Shown: in pieces, positions 17,390 to 23,985 of the stretch
Position numbering within the stretch: position 1 is the first letter of the stretch
Layout of the letters: each line of letters opens with the position of its first letter
From: an uncultured Flavobacteriales bacterium
GTDB lineage: Bacteria > Bacteroidota > Bacteroidia > Flavobacteriales_D > Crocinitomicaceae
Reading direction: 5' to 3'
Length of the DNA: 45,900 nt
Assembly: GCA_903945495.1 (NCBI GenBank)
Contig: CAJAVU010000112.1
Span: 1-45,900 of the forward strand
Translations under genes and position numbers: made by a program
Notes under the pieces: model-generated
Told to the model about the DNA's origin: nothing
The model's database searches: none
What the model saw: the letters and a program-made list of their open reading frames with translations, nothing else

Positions 17390-18553
17390 TCAATTAATTA
17401 TCAACGCTTTTTGAATATCTTCCCAGATATCGTCAATCTGTTCTAAACCAATCGATAAACGAACTAAACCATCCGTTATTCCTACTTCCAAGCGCTGTTC
17501 TGAAGTTAATTTTGAATGCGTTGTTGATGCTGGATGCGTTGCAATGCTTCGTGTATCACCCAAATTAGCTGTCAATGAAAACAGATTCAATTGATCTAAG
17601 AATTTTCTTCCTGCTTCCAAACCACCTTTCAATTCAAAACTGACGATTCCTCCACCCTTTTTCATCTGTTTAATTGCAATTTCATATTGTGGATGCGATT
17701 TCAAAAATGGATATTTTACCCATTCGATGGAATCATGTCCTTCCAAACGCGTAGCAATCTCCAATGCATTCTTGCAATGACGTTCCATTCTCACGTCCAA
17801 AGTTTCCAAGGATTTTGACAATGTCCAAGCATTGAACGGACTTAAAGCCGGACCTGTGTGACGCGCAAATGCTTTTACTTTCTCAATAATTTCAAAAGAT
17901 GAAAGAATTAATCCACCCAATGTTCTTCCTTGTCCGTCGATGTATTTCGTTGCCGAATGAATTGTAACATCTGCTCCAAAATCTATCGGTCGCTGCAACA
18001 AGGGCGTTGCAAAACAATTATCAACTGCAAATAAAATAGAATGACGTTTTGTTATCGCTGCAATTTTCTCCAAATCAATAATATCCAATCCTGGATTGCT
18101 TGGTGTTTCTAAAAACAAAATCTTTGTTGCTGGCGTGATTGCATTTTCAAATCCTTCGTAATCGTCAAAATCAACATAGGTTGTCGTGATTCCCCATTTT
18201 GGTAAAATCTCTGTGAACAAGCGATACGTTGATCCAAAGACCGAACGAGCAGAAACAATGTGATCACCACTTTGCAACAAGGCGCCAAAGAATGTGAACA
18301 CTGCTGCCATTCCAGAAGCCGTTGCCCAACCCGTTTCAGCGTTTTCCAACACCGCCATTTTATCAATCAATTCTTGCACATTCGGATTCGCATAACGGGA
18401 ATAAATTTCCCCTTCTTTTTCATCTGCGAATTGCGCACGCATGTCTTCCGCATCGTCAAATACGTAACTGCTCGTTAAATACAATGGAACAGAATGTTCG
18501 TGATGCTTTGTTCGTTCGTTTTGAAGGCGAATGGCCAATGTTTCTTTTTCCAT
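17390..18553 (-). CDS. metZ: O-succinylhomoserine sulfhydrylase / cystathionine gamma-synthase-like PLP enzyme
   Basis: A 387-residue PLP enzyme of the Cys/Met metabolism family, which swaps the acyl group of activated homoserine for a sulfur nucleophile. The PLP lysine is Lys203 in HSATKYIDGQGR. SRYANPNVQ, GMAAVF and AVDNCFATPLLQRP are other family motifs, and the C-terminal THPASTTHSKL is typical. It is the last gene of the SAM-riboswitch operon, 3 bases after osmC. Because metX next door makes O-acetylhomoserine by family assignment, the true acyl donor is uncertain. A cystathionine gamma-synthase or gamma-lyase activity is possible. Confidence 0.82.
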   Translation of the reverse strand: MEKETLAIRLQNERTKHHEHSVPLYLTSSYVFDDAEDMRAQFADEKEGEIYSRYANPNVQELIDKMAVLENAETGWATASGMAAVFTFFGALLQSGDHIVSARSVFGSTYRLFTEILPKWGITTTYVDFDDYEGFENAITPATKILFLETPSNPGLDIIDLEKIAAITKRHSILFAVDNCFATPLLQRPIDFGADVTIHSATKYIDGQGRTLGGLILSSFEIIEKVKAFARHTGPALSPFNAWTLSKSLETLDVRMERHCKNALEIATRLEGHDSIEWVKYPFLKSHPQYEIAIKQMKKGGGIVSFELKGGLEAGRKFLDQLNLFSLTANLGDTRSIATHPASTTHSKLTSEQRLEVGITDGLVRLSIGLEQIDDIWEDIQKALIIN

Positions 18554-18556
18554 GAT

Positions 18557-18967
18557 TCAATTATGTTCGCTTGTGAAAATGAGTTCTATTTGATTGTTTA
18601 AACTTGCCGCAACTGAGCAATATTTCTCGAGTGACAAGGCAATTGCTTTGTTTGCTTTGATCAAATCAACTGACGCATCAAAGCGAAATGTCAATTCGAT
18701 TTTCTCGAACGGTGAAGGCTCTCCTTCTTTACGCACAGCATTTATTTCAACTGAATAATCTAGTAATTCAATACGTTGCTTTTGTAAAATTAACAATGTG
18801 TCAATCGAAGCACACGAAGCCAAGGAGCCAGCTAATAATTCCATCGGACGAAAGCCCAAGCCTTTACCACCAATCGCAGGATTTGCATCGATGATTACTT
18901 TATTATTTGCCTGATTACTCAATTCAAGTACAAAAGGTGTTTCGATTCGTTTCAAATTCAATTTCAT
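18557..18967 (-). CDS. OsmC family protein
   Basis: A 136-residue OsmC-fold protein with the two conserved cysteines: one in SLASCASIDTLLIL (about residue 52) and one in EKYCSVAASL (about residue 117). These are the redox pair that reduces organic peroxides or handles low-molecular persulfides in this family. It has no signal peptide, so it is cytoplasmic. The ATG overlaps the stop of the upstream YeeE gene (ATGA). Placed between sulfur transporters and a sulfhydrylase, it may handle a reactive sulfur intermediate rather than peroxide; this is an inference from context. Confidence 0.88.
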   Translation of the reverse strand: MKLNLKRIETPFVLELSNQANNKVIIDANPAIGGKGLGFRPMELLAGSLASCASIDTLLILQKQRIELLDYSVEINAVRKEGEPSPFEKIELTFRFDASVDLIKANKAIALSLEKYCSVAASLNNQIELIFTSEHN

Positions 18968-19383
18968 GCTTTTGGTAATTTACGTTCAACCAATGCAAAT
19001 AAGACAGTTCCAACAAATGCTCCTGCCAATAATATAATTCCAATTTTCCAATGCAAACCTACTAAAATGTAAACTGGTGCAGAACAAGCTCCTGAAATCG
19101 ACCAACCTAAACCAAAAATTAAACCGCCAAACAAGTTCGCTTTCCATTCCAATTTTTTCGGTTTGACTTCGATTTCATTTCCATAAATTGATTTCTGTTT
19201 GTTACGTTTCAAGATGTACAAAAACACAGCCGAAGTAGCGATTGCTGAAAACAATAACCCAAACATATGGAAGGATTGAAAATGAAACATTTCTTGAATT
19301 CGGTACCAAGAAAATGCTTGTGAAGCTAAGAGGATACTTCCAAAAAAGAATCCCAATACGAATGTTATGATAAATTTCAACAT
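18964..19383 (-). CDS. YeeE/YedE family sulfur transporter, second half (DUF6691-like)
   Basis: A 139-residue membrane protein from the ATG at 19383 (MLKFIITFVLGFFFG), one base after the preceding stop; a start at 19419 would overlap that gene. About four hydrophobic helices are visible. The conserved motif GWSISGACSAPVYILVG carries the cysteine that in TsuA-type proteins passes thiosulfate through the membrane. With the preceding gene it makes up one complete YeeE/YedE unit, here split into two polypeptides. Thiosulfate is the best guess for the substrate; sulfide or selenium species are alternatives. Confidence 0.85.
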   Translation of the reverse strand: MLKFIITFVLGFFFGSILLASQAFSWYRIQEMFHFQSFHMFGLLFSAIATSAVFLYILKRNKQKSIYGNEIEVKPKKLEWKANLFGGLIFGLGWSISGACSAPVYILVGLHWKIGIILLAGAFVGTVLFALVERKLPKA

Positions 19384-19384
19384 C

Positions 19385-19876
19385 TTAAAAAATGAGTGGG
19401 TTAATGAAAAACGAACCAATCAATCCGCCAATAAAAAACGAAACGGTTGCTAAAATGGAACTTGTAGCAAATTGAGAAACGCCCATGATACAATGTCCTG
19501 CTGAACATCCATTCGCATAACGCGCACCAAATCCAACTAAAATTCCTCCTAAGAAAAATTGCAAGCCGTTTTTCACATCGTAAATGTTCATCGCTAACTT
19601 TTCATAGTCAAGCACAGGTTGAACAACAACCGCATCAAATGCACCAAACACGTGATAAGCCGCGAAACCAGATAAAATTAATCCTAAAGCAAATTGAATT
19701 TGCCAGCGATCTCCATCCTTATGATACGAGAAGTAAGGAATTTTTGGCAACAATACTCCACCAATAAATCGATAACTGGATGAAACACCGAATTGTTTTT
19801 CTCTTAAAATTAAGAGAGCTGGAACAAGTAATCCAATAAGAGGTCCTGCAATGAACCAAGGTAACGGAGCATTCAT
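19385..19876 (-). CDS. YeeE/YedE family sulfur transporter, first half
   Basis: A 163-residue membrane protein with about four to five helices. It has the hallmark motif YANGCSAGHCIMGVSQ near residues 121-136, whose cysteines belong to the relay described for the thiosulfate channel TsuA. It starts 3 bases after the hom stop, and its own stop is 1 base before the partner gene. Co-transcription with metY, metX and hom suggests it brings in reduced sulfur for direct sulfhydrylation of O-acetylhomoserine. Confidence 0.86.
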   Translation of the reverse strand: MNAPLPWFIAGPLIGLLVPALLILREKQFGVSSSYRFIGGVLLPKIPYFSYHKDGDRWQIQFALGLILSGFAAYHVFGAFDAVVVQPVLDYEKLAMNIYDVKNGLQFFLGGILVGFGARYANGCSAGHCIMGVSQFATSSILATVSFFIGGLIGSFFINPLIF

Positions 19877-19879
19877 AAC

Positions 19880-21154
19880 TTATAGTTCAAATTCTGTTAA
19901 ATACTGAATGCGTTCCGATTTCACCGCCGGAGGCAGAAGCGAAGCTAATTTCTCTGGTTGATTTGCCGCTACAAATGCGTCAGGAAGAACGATGAAAGAC
20001 AAGTCTGATAGTTGATTCAAATCTAATTCTTTCACATCATCAAAACGTACCCAACCAGTTTGGTAATTGTAGGTTTCGCTTTGATACACCTCATCAACAC
20101 GGTAAAAAGGAATTGTATTGATTGCTTCGATGAATTGAGAACCAACGTACGCTTTCAAGTAGAAATCATCTTGAAAATTCACATTCTCATTCCCAACTGA
20201 CTTGCGGTATTCGTATTGGTAATCGAATTGAAGTGCCGAAATATCTGAAAGCACAGCACTCGCCGTTGGATAACTTCCAGCTCCTTTTCCAATGAACAAT
20301 TGTTTATCCGAGAACAAAGCTTCAACTACAACAGCATTAAATTCATTATCTACTTGATATGCGAAATGATCATTTTTCACAAAATGCGGAGCTACAAAAC
20401 CGACGATATCATTTCCTAACTTTTCTGCACGTGAGAACAATTTAATACGGTAACCTTTTTCTCCAGCATACTTAACATCTTGCATTTTGATGTTACGAAT
20501 TCCATAATTGAACACTTCTTTCGGCTCAACTACCAATCCAAACGCATGTTTGATCAACAAAACCAACTTGTATTTCGAATCGAAACCATCGACGTCAAGA
20601 GTTGGGTCGATTTCAGCGAATCCTAATTCTTGTGCTTTCGCCAATGCTTCTTCATAGGCAACGCCGTGATTCGATTGAGTTAAAATATAATTCGTTGTTC
20701 CGTTGACAATACCTTGAACCGATGACAATGAATCGTTGTTGTAATACTCTTCCAAATTACGAATGATTGGAATAGAACCTCCAACGGCTGCTTCATACAA
20801 GAATGAAACATTGTTTTCTTTTGCCGTTGCAATCAATTCTTCCAAATGTTCAGCAATTAATTTTTTATTAGCAGAAACAACGTGTTTTCCGCTTTTCAAT
20901 GCTTCTAATACGATTGCATAAGCCGCTTCGCTATCATTAATTAATTCTACAACAACATTGATAGTATTATCTTTTAGAATTGCATCCTTGTCATACAAAA
21001 ATGCTTCTGCTGGTAAACCTCTTTTTTTCGTCGGATCTTTTACAACAATTTTTGTGATGCGCGCTTCCAATAATTTACTCTTGTTTAACACTTCATACAA
21101 TCCAGTTCCAACTACCCCGAAACCAAATAAACCGATATTTAATCTACTTCTCAT
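19880..21154 (-). CDS. hom: Homoserine dehydrogenase
   Basis: A 424-residue enzyme reducing aspartate semialdehyde to homoserine, the branch point to threonine and methionine. NAD(P)-binding GLFGFGVVGTGLYEVL is at residues 8-23. SANKKLIAEH, LYEAAVGGSIPIIRNLE and GIVNGTTNYILT are the catalytic-domain motifs. There is no aspartokinase domain, so it is the monofunctional form. The C-terminal ~100 residues do not show a clear ACT domain by eye. The ATG overlaps the metX stop (ATGA). Placement in the SAM-controlled operon dedicates this copy to methionine synthesis. Confidence 0.93.
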   Translation of the reverse strand: MRSRLNIGLFGFGVVGTGLYEVLNKSKLLEARITKIVVKDPTKKRGLPAEAFLYDKDAILKDNTINVVVELINDSEAAYAIVLEALKSGKHVVSANKKLIAEHLEELIATAKENNVSFLYEAAVGGSIPIIRNLEEYYNNDSLSSVQGIVNGTTNYILTQSNHGVAYEEALAKAQELGFAEIDPTLDVDGFDSKYKLVLLIKHAFGLVVEPKEVFNYGIRNIKMQDVKYAGEKGYRIKLFSRAEKLGNDIVGFVAPHFVKNDHFAYQVDNEFNAVVVEALFSDKQLFIGKGAGSYPTASAVLSDISALQFDYQYEYRKSVGNENVNFQDDFYLKAYVGSQFIEAINTIPFYRVDEVYQSETYNYQTGWVRFDDVKELDLNQLSDLSFIVLPDAFVAANQPEKLASLLPPAVKSERIQYLTEFEL

Positions 21155-22215
21155 GCTACTACTTTTTTTGTTGTTGTTTTAAAAATTGTTGGACGATTCT
21201 CTTTAAAGTCATTGTATAGAAAGTCCGAAATAAGGCTTGTTAATTGTGTGTTTTCTACTAAGAATCCGTCATGACCGAATTCAGAATCAATTTTTCCGAA
21301 GAAGGCATTTGGAATCCATTCGCTCAAGTACGCTTGTTCTGTAATTGGGAACAATAAATCTGATTCAATTCCAATCACCAAGGTTCTCGCTTTGATTTGT
21401 TGAAGAGCAATTTCCACTGAAGGACGTTTTCTTCCAACGTTGTGTGCATCCATTGCTTTGGATAAGATCAAGTAAGAATACGCGTTGAAACGTTTTGCCA
21501 ATTTCTCTCCTTGGTAATGTTGATACGATGCTGCCAAGAAATTATCAGTTGTGTGATTTCCTGGATTTGTTTGTGTTTTCGCATAACCATCGTACGAACG
21601 GTAACTCAACATTGCAATTGCGCGTGCTGAAATCAATCCGTTTCTTCCTCCATCAACATTTCCATTTCCAAAGGTTTGATCTGCGAAAAGTGCCAAGCGT
21701 TGCGTTTCATTGAAGGCAATCCCAAAAGCAGAATGACGCGCATTTGTTGCAATCAAAATCAAGTTTTCAATTCGATTGTTTTGTTCAATTGCCCATTCCA
21801 AGGCTTGTTGTCCTCCCAAGGAAGCACCAACCAACAAATTGATTTTTTCGATTCCTAAATGTTCACGCAATAAATCATGCGCTCTTGCCATGTCACGTGT
21901 TGTTACAAATGGGAAATGATCCAAAACAGGTTCATCGTTTTTGAAAGTGTTCAATGGTCCACTGGTTCCATAATGTGAACCCAAAATATTTGCACAAACA
22001 ATAAAATGTTCTGATGGATTGAATAAATCATTTTCACCAAAAACGCCATTCCACCAATCAAAAACATCGCTGTTAGCCGTTAATGCGTGTGTTACCCAAA
22101 CGACATTGTTTTTAGAAGGATCAAAGGTTCCAAATGTGTGATAAGCAATTTGTAAATTTTCGATTATTTCACCGCTTTCTAAGCGAAATTCTTGATTGGT
22201 GTTATAAAGCTTCAT
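21151..22215 (-). CDS. metX: Homoserine O-acetyltransferase
   Basis: A 354-residue alpha/beta hydrolase that activates homoserine with an acyl group from acyl-CoA. The nucleophile is Ser132 in LLVGASLGGQQALEWA; the other triad members are expected in GIESDLLFP (Asp) and SEFGHDGFLVE (His). NNVVWVTHALTANSDVFDWW and SHYGTSGPLN are family motifs. Acetyl versus succinyl specificity cannot be read reliably here; pairing with metY argues for acetyl. It follows metY by 41 bases, which hold an 8-base word repeat, and overlaps hom by ATGA. Confidence 0.92.
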   Translation of the reverse strand: MKLYNTNQEFRLESGEIIENLQIAYHTFGTFDPSKNNVVWVTHALTANSDVFDWWNGVFGENDLFNPSEHFIVCANILGSHYGTSGPLNTFKNDEPVLDHFPFVTTRDMARAHDLLREHLGIEKINLLVGASLGGQQALEWAIEQNNRIENLILIATNARHSAFGIAFNETQRLALFADQTFGNGNVDGGRNGLISARAIAMLSYRSYDGYAKTQTNPGNHTTDNFLAASYQHYQGEKLAKRFNAYSYLILSKAMDAHNVGRKRPSVEIALQQIKARTLVIGIESDLLFPITEQAYLSEWIPNAFFGKIDSEFGHDGFLVENTQLTSLISDFLYNDFKENRPTIFKTTTKKVVA

Positions 22216-22256: not shown

Positions 22257-23582
<1,326 letters not shown>

Positions 23583-23637: not shown

Positions 23638-23707
23638 GGCAGAAAAATATCAGGGCCCAAGATAAATCCTGCCGCCGATAATTGCCATAAGAAGGTCGAA
23701 AATTATC
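23638..23707 (-). promoter_or_regulatory. Possible attenuator structures between leader peptide and metY
   Basis: On the minus-strand RNA a 7-bp stem (23707-23701 with 23683-23677) starts within the leader stop codon. Next, the segment around 23673-23668 can pair with CCTG at 23654-23651, followed by a short U-rich run, or with CTGCC at 23642-23638. The two pairings exclude each other. The stems are short and drawn by hand, so this is only a candidate for a ribosome-position switch. Confidence 0.3.
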
Positions 23708-23822
23708 AGCTATTGCAGCAGCAACAGCACATTAGATTTTTTTCGATATTAAAAATTGATTTCACTGCTTTCAGAGTTGAAAGACTTTTTACTTGGCTTG
23801 AAGAATGTAATTCCTTTTTCAT
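23706..23822 (-). CDS. Putative leader peptide ending in five cysteines
   Basis: A 38-codon frame starts with ATG at 23822, only 8 bases after the riboswitch P1 helix, with an A-rich stretch (ATAAAAG) as a possible ribosome site. It ends MCCCCCNS-stop; the cysteine codons are TGC TGT TGC TGC TGC. No homology to an enzyme is visible. Position between a SAM riboswitch and metY and the cysteine run suggest a sensor peptide on which ribosomes stall when Cys-tRNA is short, as in classical amino acid attenuators. The stop codon lies at the foot of a 7-bp stem. The alternative is chance coding by a GCA-rich stretch. Confidence 0.55.
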   Translation of the reverse strand: MKKELHSSSQVKSLSTLKAVKSIFNIEKNLMCCCCCNS

Positions 23823-23830
23823 AATCTTTT

Positions 23831-23954
23831 ATTTATATTCTTCCGAACATTCGGAATCAGGAATTGGCACCGGTTTTCCAACCCCGTACGTACGGGACTT
23901 AAAGTTGGTTGCCAGAGGATCACAGAGCCTGTCTCTCACCTCTTCTTTATAAAT
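23831..23954 (-). promoter_or_regulatory. SAM-I (S-box) riboswitch
   Basis: All parts of the SAM-I aptamer are readable on the minus strand. P1 is formed by ATTTATA (23954-23948) with TATAAAT (23837-23831). The P2 region starts GAGGTGAGAGACAGGCTC and ends CCTCTGGCAACC. P3 is CCAAC..GTTGG around an inner palindrome. The J3/4 segment is CCGGTGCCAATTCCTG, and P4 is a perfect 7-bp hairpin (23841-23856). It precedes metY and the six following genes. SAM binding should stabilise P1, whose 3' strand lies 8 bases from the ATG of the Cys-run leader frame. That geometry would suit translational control of the leader. Confidence 0.93.
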
Positions 23955-23985
23955 CTTAGATTCACCGTTTGTGAAAATGATGCTG

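Follow-up and report, generated by a model that had tools for sequence, protein, structure and literature searches.

A SAM-I riboswitch aptamer, followed within a few nucleotides by a short open reading frame (ORF) that ends in a run of Cys codons, precedes metY in an uncultured Crocinitomicaceae bacterium. This combination of aptamer, Cys-run leader and metY, reported in a first-pass annotation of the DNA, is confirmed and widespread, with a Cys-run ORF in 133/171 aptamer-bearing Bacteroidota metY leaders once near-duplicates are removed. MetY production is probably subject to two sulfur signals that the cell reads one after the other. The reading that we favour, and consider moderately likely, is that control of the metY-metX-hom-sulfur transport operon lies in a leader RNA with two stages, first a SAM-dependent gate at aptamer helix P1 and then ribosome stalling at the Cys run. 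If true, this would be a natural and widespread RNA logic element that takes two inputs and in which the output of a riboswitch is a regulatory peptide and not an enzyme. It would also tie SAM status to cysteine status within a single leader, across a phylum with little-studied post-transcriptional control.

The metY locus and its leader

The window (the whole 45,900-nt stretch of DNA that was analysed) contains the following leader elements and downstream genes.

23830-23955, minus strand: SAM-I (S-box) riboswitch aptamer, SAM binding predicted (Rfam RF00162, 67.9 bits)
23830-23837, minus strand: 3' strand of aptamer helix P1, UAUAAAUA, 8-15 nt 5' of the leader ATG (sequence and cmscan alignment)
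23706-23822, minus strand: leader peptide ORF, 38 codons, tail CCCCCNS-stop (sequence; counterparts in the 133/171 leaders above)
23715-23729, minus strand: five consecutive Cys codons, proposed Cys-tRNA-sensing site (sequence; frame-specific conservation of TGY runs)
22257-23579, minus strand: metY, O-acetylhomoserine/O-acetylserine sulfhydrylase (TIGR01326, 668.9 bits, cut-off 495.1)
21151-22215, minus strand: metX-like homoserine O-acetyltransferase (TIGR01392, E 3.2e-96, under the curated cut-off)
19880-21154, minus strand: homoserine dehydrogenase, hom (NF004976, 340.4 bits, cut-off 205)
19385-19876, minus strand: sulfur-transport half protein, TsuA/YeeE-like (PF04143; NF052577 under cut-off)
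18964-19419, minus strand: second sulfur-transport half protein (PF04143; NF052577 under cut-off)
18557-18967, minus strand: OsmC-like protein (PF02566)
17390-18553, minus strand: second Cys/Met-metabolism PLP enzyme, O-succinylhomoserine sulfhydrylase-like (PF01053; NF006003, 519.5 bits, cut-off 522)

The aptamer is the sole Rfam match at gathering score within the window (gathering score 44.4, E 7.5e-14; Rfam covariance-model scan), and its boundaries differ by one nucleotide at each end from the complete SAM-I aptamer that the first-pass annotation had placed at 23954-23831. The predicted leader peptide is MKKELHSSSQVKSLSTLKAVKSIFNIEKNLMCCCCCNS (ORF 23822-23706, minus strand); the 38-codon frame closing with five Cys, Asn, Ser and a stop was thus read correctly, and its ATG lies eight bases past the aptamer by the earlier aptamer end and 7 nt past it by the Rfam end. 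Gene order 3' of the leader is metY, metX-like, hom, the two sulfur-transport halves, the OsmC-like gene and the PLP enzyme; metY, metX-like, hom and sulfur transport are methionine and sulfur genes of the kind expected behind an amino-acid leader peptide. An extra gene lies between leader and metY in some other genomes, OsmC-like by eye in L062, L064 and L105 and peroxiredoxin-like by eye in the Hymenobacter loci L078 and L096. One other SAM-I aptamer occurs in the window's genome, before metH and without a Cys leader.

Runs of Cys-type triplets are common in this genome, with 87 occurrences of (TGY)4. Five other ATG-started ORFs of <90 aa that contain CCCC were found in the 64 loci or regions covering the remaining (TGY)4 matches, and all five overlap open frames of at least 265 codons; among ATG-started ORFs complete within those regions, there is no credible second poly-Cys leader. 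A chance origin of the window leader is excluded because it is conserved across relatives.

Conservation of the leader across Bacteroidota

Three sets of metY loci were compared. Set 1 combines 80 named loci, the best of a longer list of metY homologues, with 19 matches from a search of 200 genomes in the window's family; four of these 19 were repeats of named loci and were dropped, and the window's copy is counted once, which leaves 95 loci. Set 2 holds every one of the 78 other metY matches that 396 genomes of the class gave at E <= 1e-170, and sets 1 and 2 minus five near-duplicates make up 168 loci. Set 3 is an uneven sample of 60 loci chosen from 138 and 19 matches, 58 of them from one other family and 2 from the window's family; 11 of the 60 are near-duplicates of other loci and are excluded from the count of 171 leaders. 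Aptamers were called with Rfam in set 1 and with our own covariance model, R1, in sets 2 and 3. R1 has a poor RNAalifold structure (11 pairs) and was used solely for aptamer detection, for which it agrees with Rfam on presence or absence in 40/40 set-2 loci given to both. The aptamer is present in 122/168 loci of sets 1 and 2 and in 60/60 of set 3. A Cys-run ORF was defined as an ATG ORF with at least 3 Cys in six codons within 300 nt behind the aptamer. The deduplicated recount used an identical 300-nt region for observed and shuffled sequences, and dropping near-duplicates (from 182 leaders and 146 post-stop regions) changed no main count materially.

By this definition, 98/122 non-redundant aptamer-bearing leaders of sets 1 and 2 have a Cys-run ORF, compared with a shuffle mean of 1.9 (maximum 6, 200 rounds) and a single case on the reverse strand. 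For all three sets, the 133/171 leaders compare with an average of 2.79 after shuffling (at most 7 in any of 100 rounds) and with 2 when the reverse strand is searched. Occurrences of (TGY)3 in the 171 leaders, with overlapping runs counted apart, number 230 in the frame of the ATG behind P1, 1 in another frame and 3 past the stop, and both Cys codons are in use (TGT 476, TGC 357). Met often intersperses the Cys runs, as in the tails CCCMCCCCMCC, CMCCCC and MCCCCC. Judged by the frame of these repeats, the leader appears to be read as codons. Its median length is 40 codons in sets 1 and 2. N-termini diverge, with none common to different clades by eye, while the terminal Cys run is kept; constraint on the peptide body is moderate at most, with a nonsynonymous/synonymous ratio of 0.51 compared to 0.73 and 0.70 in shifted frames, from pairwise and hence non-independent counts among 11 equal-length Pedobacter-type leaders. 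The first-pass annotation had offered loss of the frame or of the Cys codons in relatives as grounds for abandoning its idea; across Bacteroidota the frame, the ATG-to-P1 spacing and the Cys run are retained and the rest of the peptide varies.

The start codon of the leader is held close to the aptamer. In 165/171 metY leaders an ATG lies between -2 and +16 nt relative to the end of the aptamer, compared to 187/512 downstream control windows, and the leader ATG has a median offset of 8 nt (IQR 7-9), with 112/133 at 6-10 nt. If this spacing belonged to the aptamer family in general, it should be shared by the aptamers before metH; that expectation is ruled out, since the metH ATG lies 35-68 nt behind its aptamer, with a median of 44 nt (29 of 31 loci; contig ends lie near the other two). 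None of the 31 further aptamers in the window's family has a Cys-run ORF before its gene, and 24 more family aptamers before metH (L347, before a PLP enzyme, left out) have no Cys/Met leader. A single short CC ORF near the family aptamers, at L023, is located within metH. At L006, L007, L009 and L010 a short T-rich stretch lies between the metH aptamer and metH, unlike the situation behind metY aptamers. The ATG spacing and the metH contrast place the P1 3' strand at the ribosome-binding region of the leader, and a spacing of 7-9 nt leaves no room for a separate expression platform, which supports gating of leader translation by P1. The simplest reading is that SAM would control translation of the leader and not metY directly. 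In part, then, the dual SAM/cysteine sensor first suggested for this locus is supported: P1 gating fits geometry and conservation, and the alternative stems described below are real in the window and clade-specific elsewhere.

Not every aptamer is followed by a Cys run. By threshold, 38/171 aptamer-bearing loci have none, including Algoriphagus-type loci and 10/11 loci of genus code g64; the 24 such loci among the 122 of sets 1 and 2 include 9 from Algoriphagus and 3 each from family codes f17 and f67, and six of the 24 (L055, L082, L112, L175, L179 and L211) have sub-threshold tails that contain Cys/Met. The nine Algoriphagus loci (L042, L054, L061, L067, L072, L073, L092, L094 and L109) keep the ATG, lack the Cys run and have a shorter leader-to-metY distance. 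The g64 loci (L289-L299) retain the aptamer and, in most cases, the leader ORF; 10/11 have lost the Cys run and 8/11 have an RMR tail.

Conversely, leaders rich in Met/Cys occur in 22/46 aptamer-less loci, where shuffles give a mean of 0.04, and 9 of these 22 carry a tandem pair of such leaders (within 450 nt 5' of metY in L172, L180, L192, L199, L206, L216, L130, L131 and L040). Marinilabiliaceae-type loci (L049, L051, L052, L068, L088 and L098) are aptamer-less and have Met-rich tails, e.g., MMMCMMMTR and MMMGRMSMA. The Met share is 0.52 in 31 leaders without an aptamer and 0.22 in 88 leaders with one (Mann-Whitney p 3e-10, uncorrected for relatedness), which is suggestive of a swap between leader Met codons and the aptamer. 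A MetY tree of 123 rows requires no fewer than 11 changes in aptamer state; the proposed swap reaches no significance on MetY trees and has at most 2 supported independent pairs (L130 and L131, being remote, left out of the second tree). It is a lead only, because the trees give no signal and Cys-dominated tails also occur without an aptamer (L065, L083 and L224, family code f36). Tentatively, and with a little less than an even chance in our estimation, metY operons may hold an interchangeable sulfur-amino-acid sensor, in which an aptamer that gates a Cys leader is exchanged for leader Met codons or a second leader. If so, a ligand-binding RNA and a codon run would substitute for each other in one regulatory slot, with charged tRNA reading both branches in aptamer-less loci and the aptamer reading the methionine branch elsewhere. 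Met/Cys leaders in aptamer-less loci are a natural experiment in how riboswitch and codon run can stand in for each other.

That the two modules can exist apart (24/122 aptamer loci without a Cys run and 22/46 aptamer-less loci with a Cys/Met leader) is what would be seen if they were two independent controls, with the aptamer acting alone through structure or transcript stability and the Cys leader acting separately, in the absence of P1 gating. We consider this unlikely, given the near-constant position of the ATG 7-9 nt behind P1 and the lack of a separate expression platform; even among the 24 loci without a Cys run, 22 still have the ATG there.

RNA downstream of the Cys run and the proposed switch

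In the window, the region between the Cys codons and metY has these predicted elements.

23701-23710, minus strand: 5' arm of the stop-codon stem, holding TGA at 23708-23706; candidate antiterminator arm (fold; counterparts in relatives)
23674-23683, minus strand: 3' arm of the stop-codon stem, whose TATCGG part doubles as the 5' arm of the candidate terminator (fold)
23669-23675, minus strand: segment that pairs with the Cys codons or partly with CTGCC at 23642-23638 (complementarity by inspection; fold)
23643-23680, minus strand: candidate intrinsic terminator, a hairpin at 23680-23648 of -10.3 kcal/mol followed by T5 at 23647-23643 (fold)

The stop-codon stem joins GCTGATAATT (23710-23701) to AATTATCGGC (23683-23674) by 10 bp, including one G-U pair, and counterpart pairing is found in the relatives L114, L115, L034, L036, L118 and L121. 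It had been described as a 7-bp stem with the stop at its foot; the stem is real, with the stop inside its longer 5' arm. CTGCTGC within the Cys codons (23721-23715) can pair with GCGGCAG (23675-23669). The 11-nt segments CTGATAATTTT (23709-23699) and CTGATATTTTT (23653-23643) are identical except for a single base, as alternative partners would be expected to be, and CTGATATTTTT is the 3' arm of the candidate terminator. Mutually exclusive stems before metY, as also proposed earlier, are therefore real in the window by inspection and folds, and the post-Cys region is more stable than shuffled sequences (z -3.1; 2/200 shuffles equally stable). The predicted layout is that of a candidate terminator/antiterminator pair. 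By inspection, L114 and L115, the nearest relatives, have no U run at the corresponding position, so the window terminator may be a local feature or chance.

Post-stop RNA in other loci is likewise more stable than shuffles (mean z -1.44, 122 leaders), with folds that differ between clades. An intrinsic terminator is not favoured as a general OFF step, with at most a slight excess of terminator-like signals over shuffles: 12/122 against 8.1 at <= -3 kcal/mol (8 rounds), 7 against 4.1 at -5 and 5 against 2.75 at -7 kcal/mol. Nor is pairing between Cys codons and a downstream segment favoured as a universal feature, since the Cys/stop segment shows weak pairing to the RNA downstream of it across all loci (mean z -0.60 compared to -0.26 in the control; 146 leaders, near-duplicates included). 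Such pairing is clade-specific: it is strong in many Crocinitomicaceae- and Cyclobacteriaceae-type loci, where the partner changes sequence along with the Cys/stop segment (e.g., L036, L118, L114, L115 and L056), and weaker in L035, L033 and L123. Pedobacter-type leaders (CTTCY...GGAAGG...TACG) have a covarying hairpin between GGAAGG and TACG. Its first pair is U-A in 14 and C-G in 9 of 23 distinct sequences, and later pairs alternate between C-G/U-A and G-C/A-U; in the 20 sequences with room for five pairs, 99/100 cells pair, compared to 84.6 with swapped 3' halves (maximum 92, 1000 rounds). This hairpin could be a structured RNA motif in its own right (L048, L101, L108, L175, L184, L186, L200, L202 and most of L240-L257). 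The region around the metY start is largely free of pairing (mean 0.62 compared to 0.41 further upstream, 146 leaders), and masking of the metY start is not favoured for a region so comparatively open, which points to control of transcription or RNA fate. The pyrimidine share is modestly higher past the stop than in the ORF body (0.64 compared to 0.54).

We propose the following two-stage switch. When SAM is bound, P1 would be stabilised and loading of the 30S subunit on the leader ORF blocked. When SAM is low, the leader would be translated, and a ribosome short of Cys-tRNA would stall at the terminal Cys run; in many species the stall perhaps also senses Met-tRNA. A stalled ribosome would let an antiterminator-type stem form or would shield the RNA from Rho, so that transcription reaches metY, and the operon would be OFF when the leader is completed (Cys sufficient) or untranslated (high SAM), which amounts to AND logic. 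In the window, the antiterminator arm would be covered by a ribosome that has reached the stop (OFF) and left free by one stalled early in the run of Cys codons (ON). Under a purely classical scheme the antiterminator would also form on an untranslated leader, and the OFF state at high SAM would then depend on Rho or on a different pairing; a Rho-based OFF step would fit.

The sign of the second response is fixed by nothing computed. MetY uses sulfide, and a Cys-run stall could instead turn metY OFF and spare sulfide for cysteine synthesis. This inverted logic seems slightly less likely again than independent controls. The Cys leader of cysS is proposed, in the available text of that report, to induce upon stalling (PMC8632094), and an early stall in the window's Cys run would free the candidate antiterminator arm. 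Sulfur-transport genes in the operon and the OAH/OAS sulfhydrylase family of MetY also agree with induction when sulfur is scarce.

Cys/Met-rich tails can bind Cu(I), and the window's operon includes an OsmC-like gene; the nascent peptide might thus sense metal or thiol stress directly and not tRNA charging, in the manner of CruR, which is described in the accessible text as a copper-sensing uORF (PMC9426467). This is improbable, considering that the genes downstream are Met/sulfur genes and that run length, spacing and Cys/Met mixture vary freely among leaders, with no fixed motif such as CXXC kept in the tails by inspection. Selection of the UGY repeat purely as an RNA pairing partner, rather than as codons, can be set aside as very improbable: in two clades such repeats find pairing partners in GCAACA/GCGGCAG-type segments further downstream, but 230/231 pre-stop (TGY)3 occurrences (overlaps counted apart) are in phase, as Cys codons, with the ATG that follows P1, and Met codons interrupt the runs in frame.

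Comparison with known systems

Poly-Cys leaders and SAM-I riboswitches are each known separately. A search of CC-licensed PMC full text, which covers few subscription papers and no preprints and was available in part, returned no report that places a SAM riboswitch and a Cys leader one behind the other. Canestrari et al. in 2020 reportedly tested a mycobacterial poly-Cys leader, with leaderless ORFs in that case. Poly-Cys leader ORFs have been predicted before mycobacterial cys operons, for which a Rho-based step was once proposed (PMC1262725, available text). They share with the present leaders a short ORF, a Cys run near its stop, a position 5' of sulfur genes and the lack of a conserved intrinsic terminator; they belong to Actinobacteria, and the available text mentions no riboswitch. 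The leaders described here, unlike the mycobacterial ones, occur in Bacteroidota before metY, have a SAM-I aptamer 8 nt upstream and often have Met codons mixed in. The Salmonella/E. coli mgtA leader combines an ion-sensing RNA with the MgtL leader peptide; it differs in responding to Mg2+ and proline and in its architecture.

In Rhodobacterales, uORFC-8-2 is a Cys attenuator before cysS for which ribosome-mediated attenuation at tandem Cys codons has been proposed (PMC8632094, in its accessible part), and for both systems this attenuation is a proposal; uORFC-8-2 differs in that it usually has two Cys codons, has an intrinsic terminator and lies 5' of cysS, with no riboswitch mentioned in that part. 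CruR of Bordetella is a copper-responsive uORF linked to Rho-dependent termination, in which, according to the sections at hand, a stall near the uORF end decides Rho termination in a long intergenic region, a parallel to the present case; it differs in that metal is sensed by a DUF2946 protein, with neither a riboswitch nor a Cys run in those sections (PMC9426467). Leader-peptide attenuation has also been predicted for amino-acid operons of Flavobacterium psychrophilum (PMC9723704, available text). Barrick and Breaker described SAM-I riboswitches whose RBS lies in the P1 3' strand (PMC2258182, as far as its available text goes), which have in common with the metY leaders the aptamer family and a translation start beside P1; unlike in those riboswitches, the ORF gated here would be a regulatory leader peptide and not a metabolic gene.
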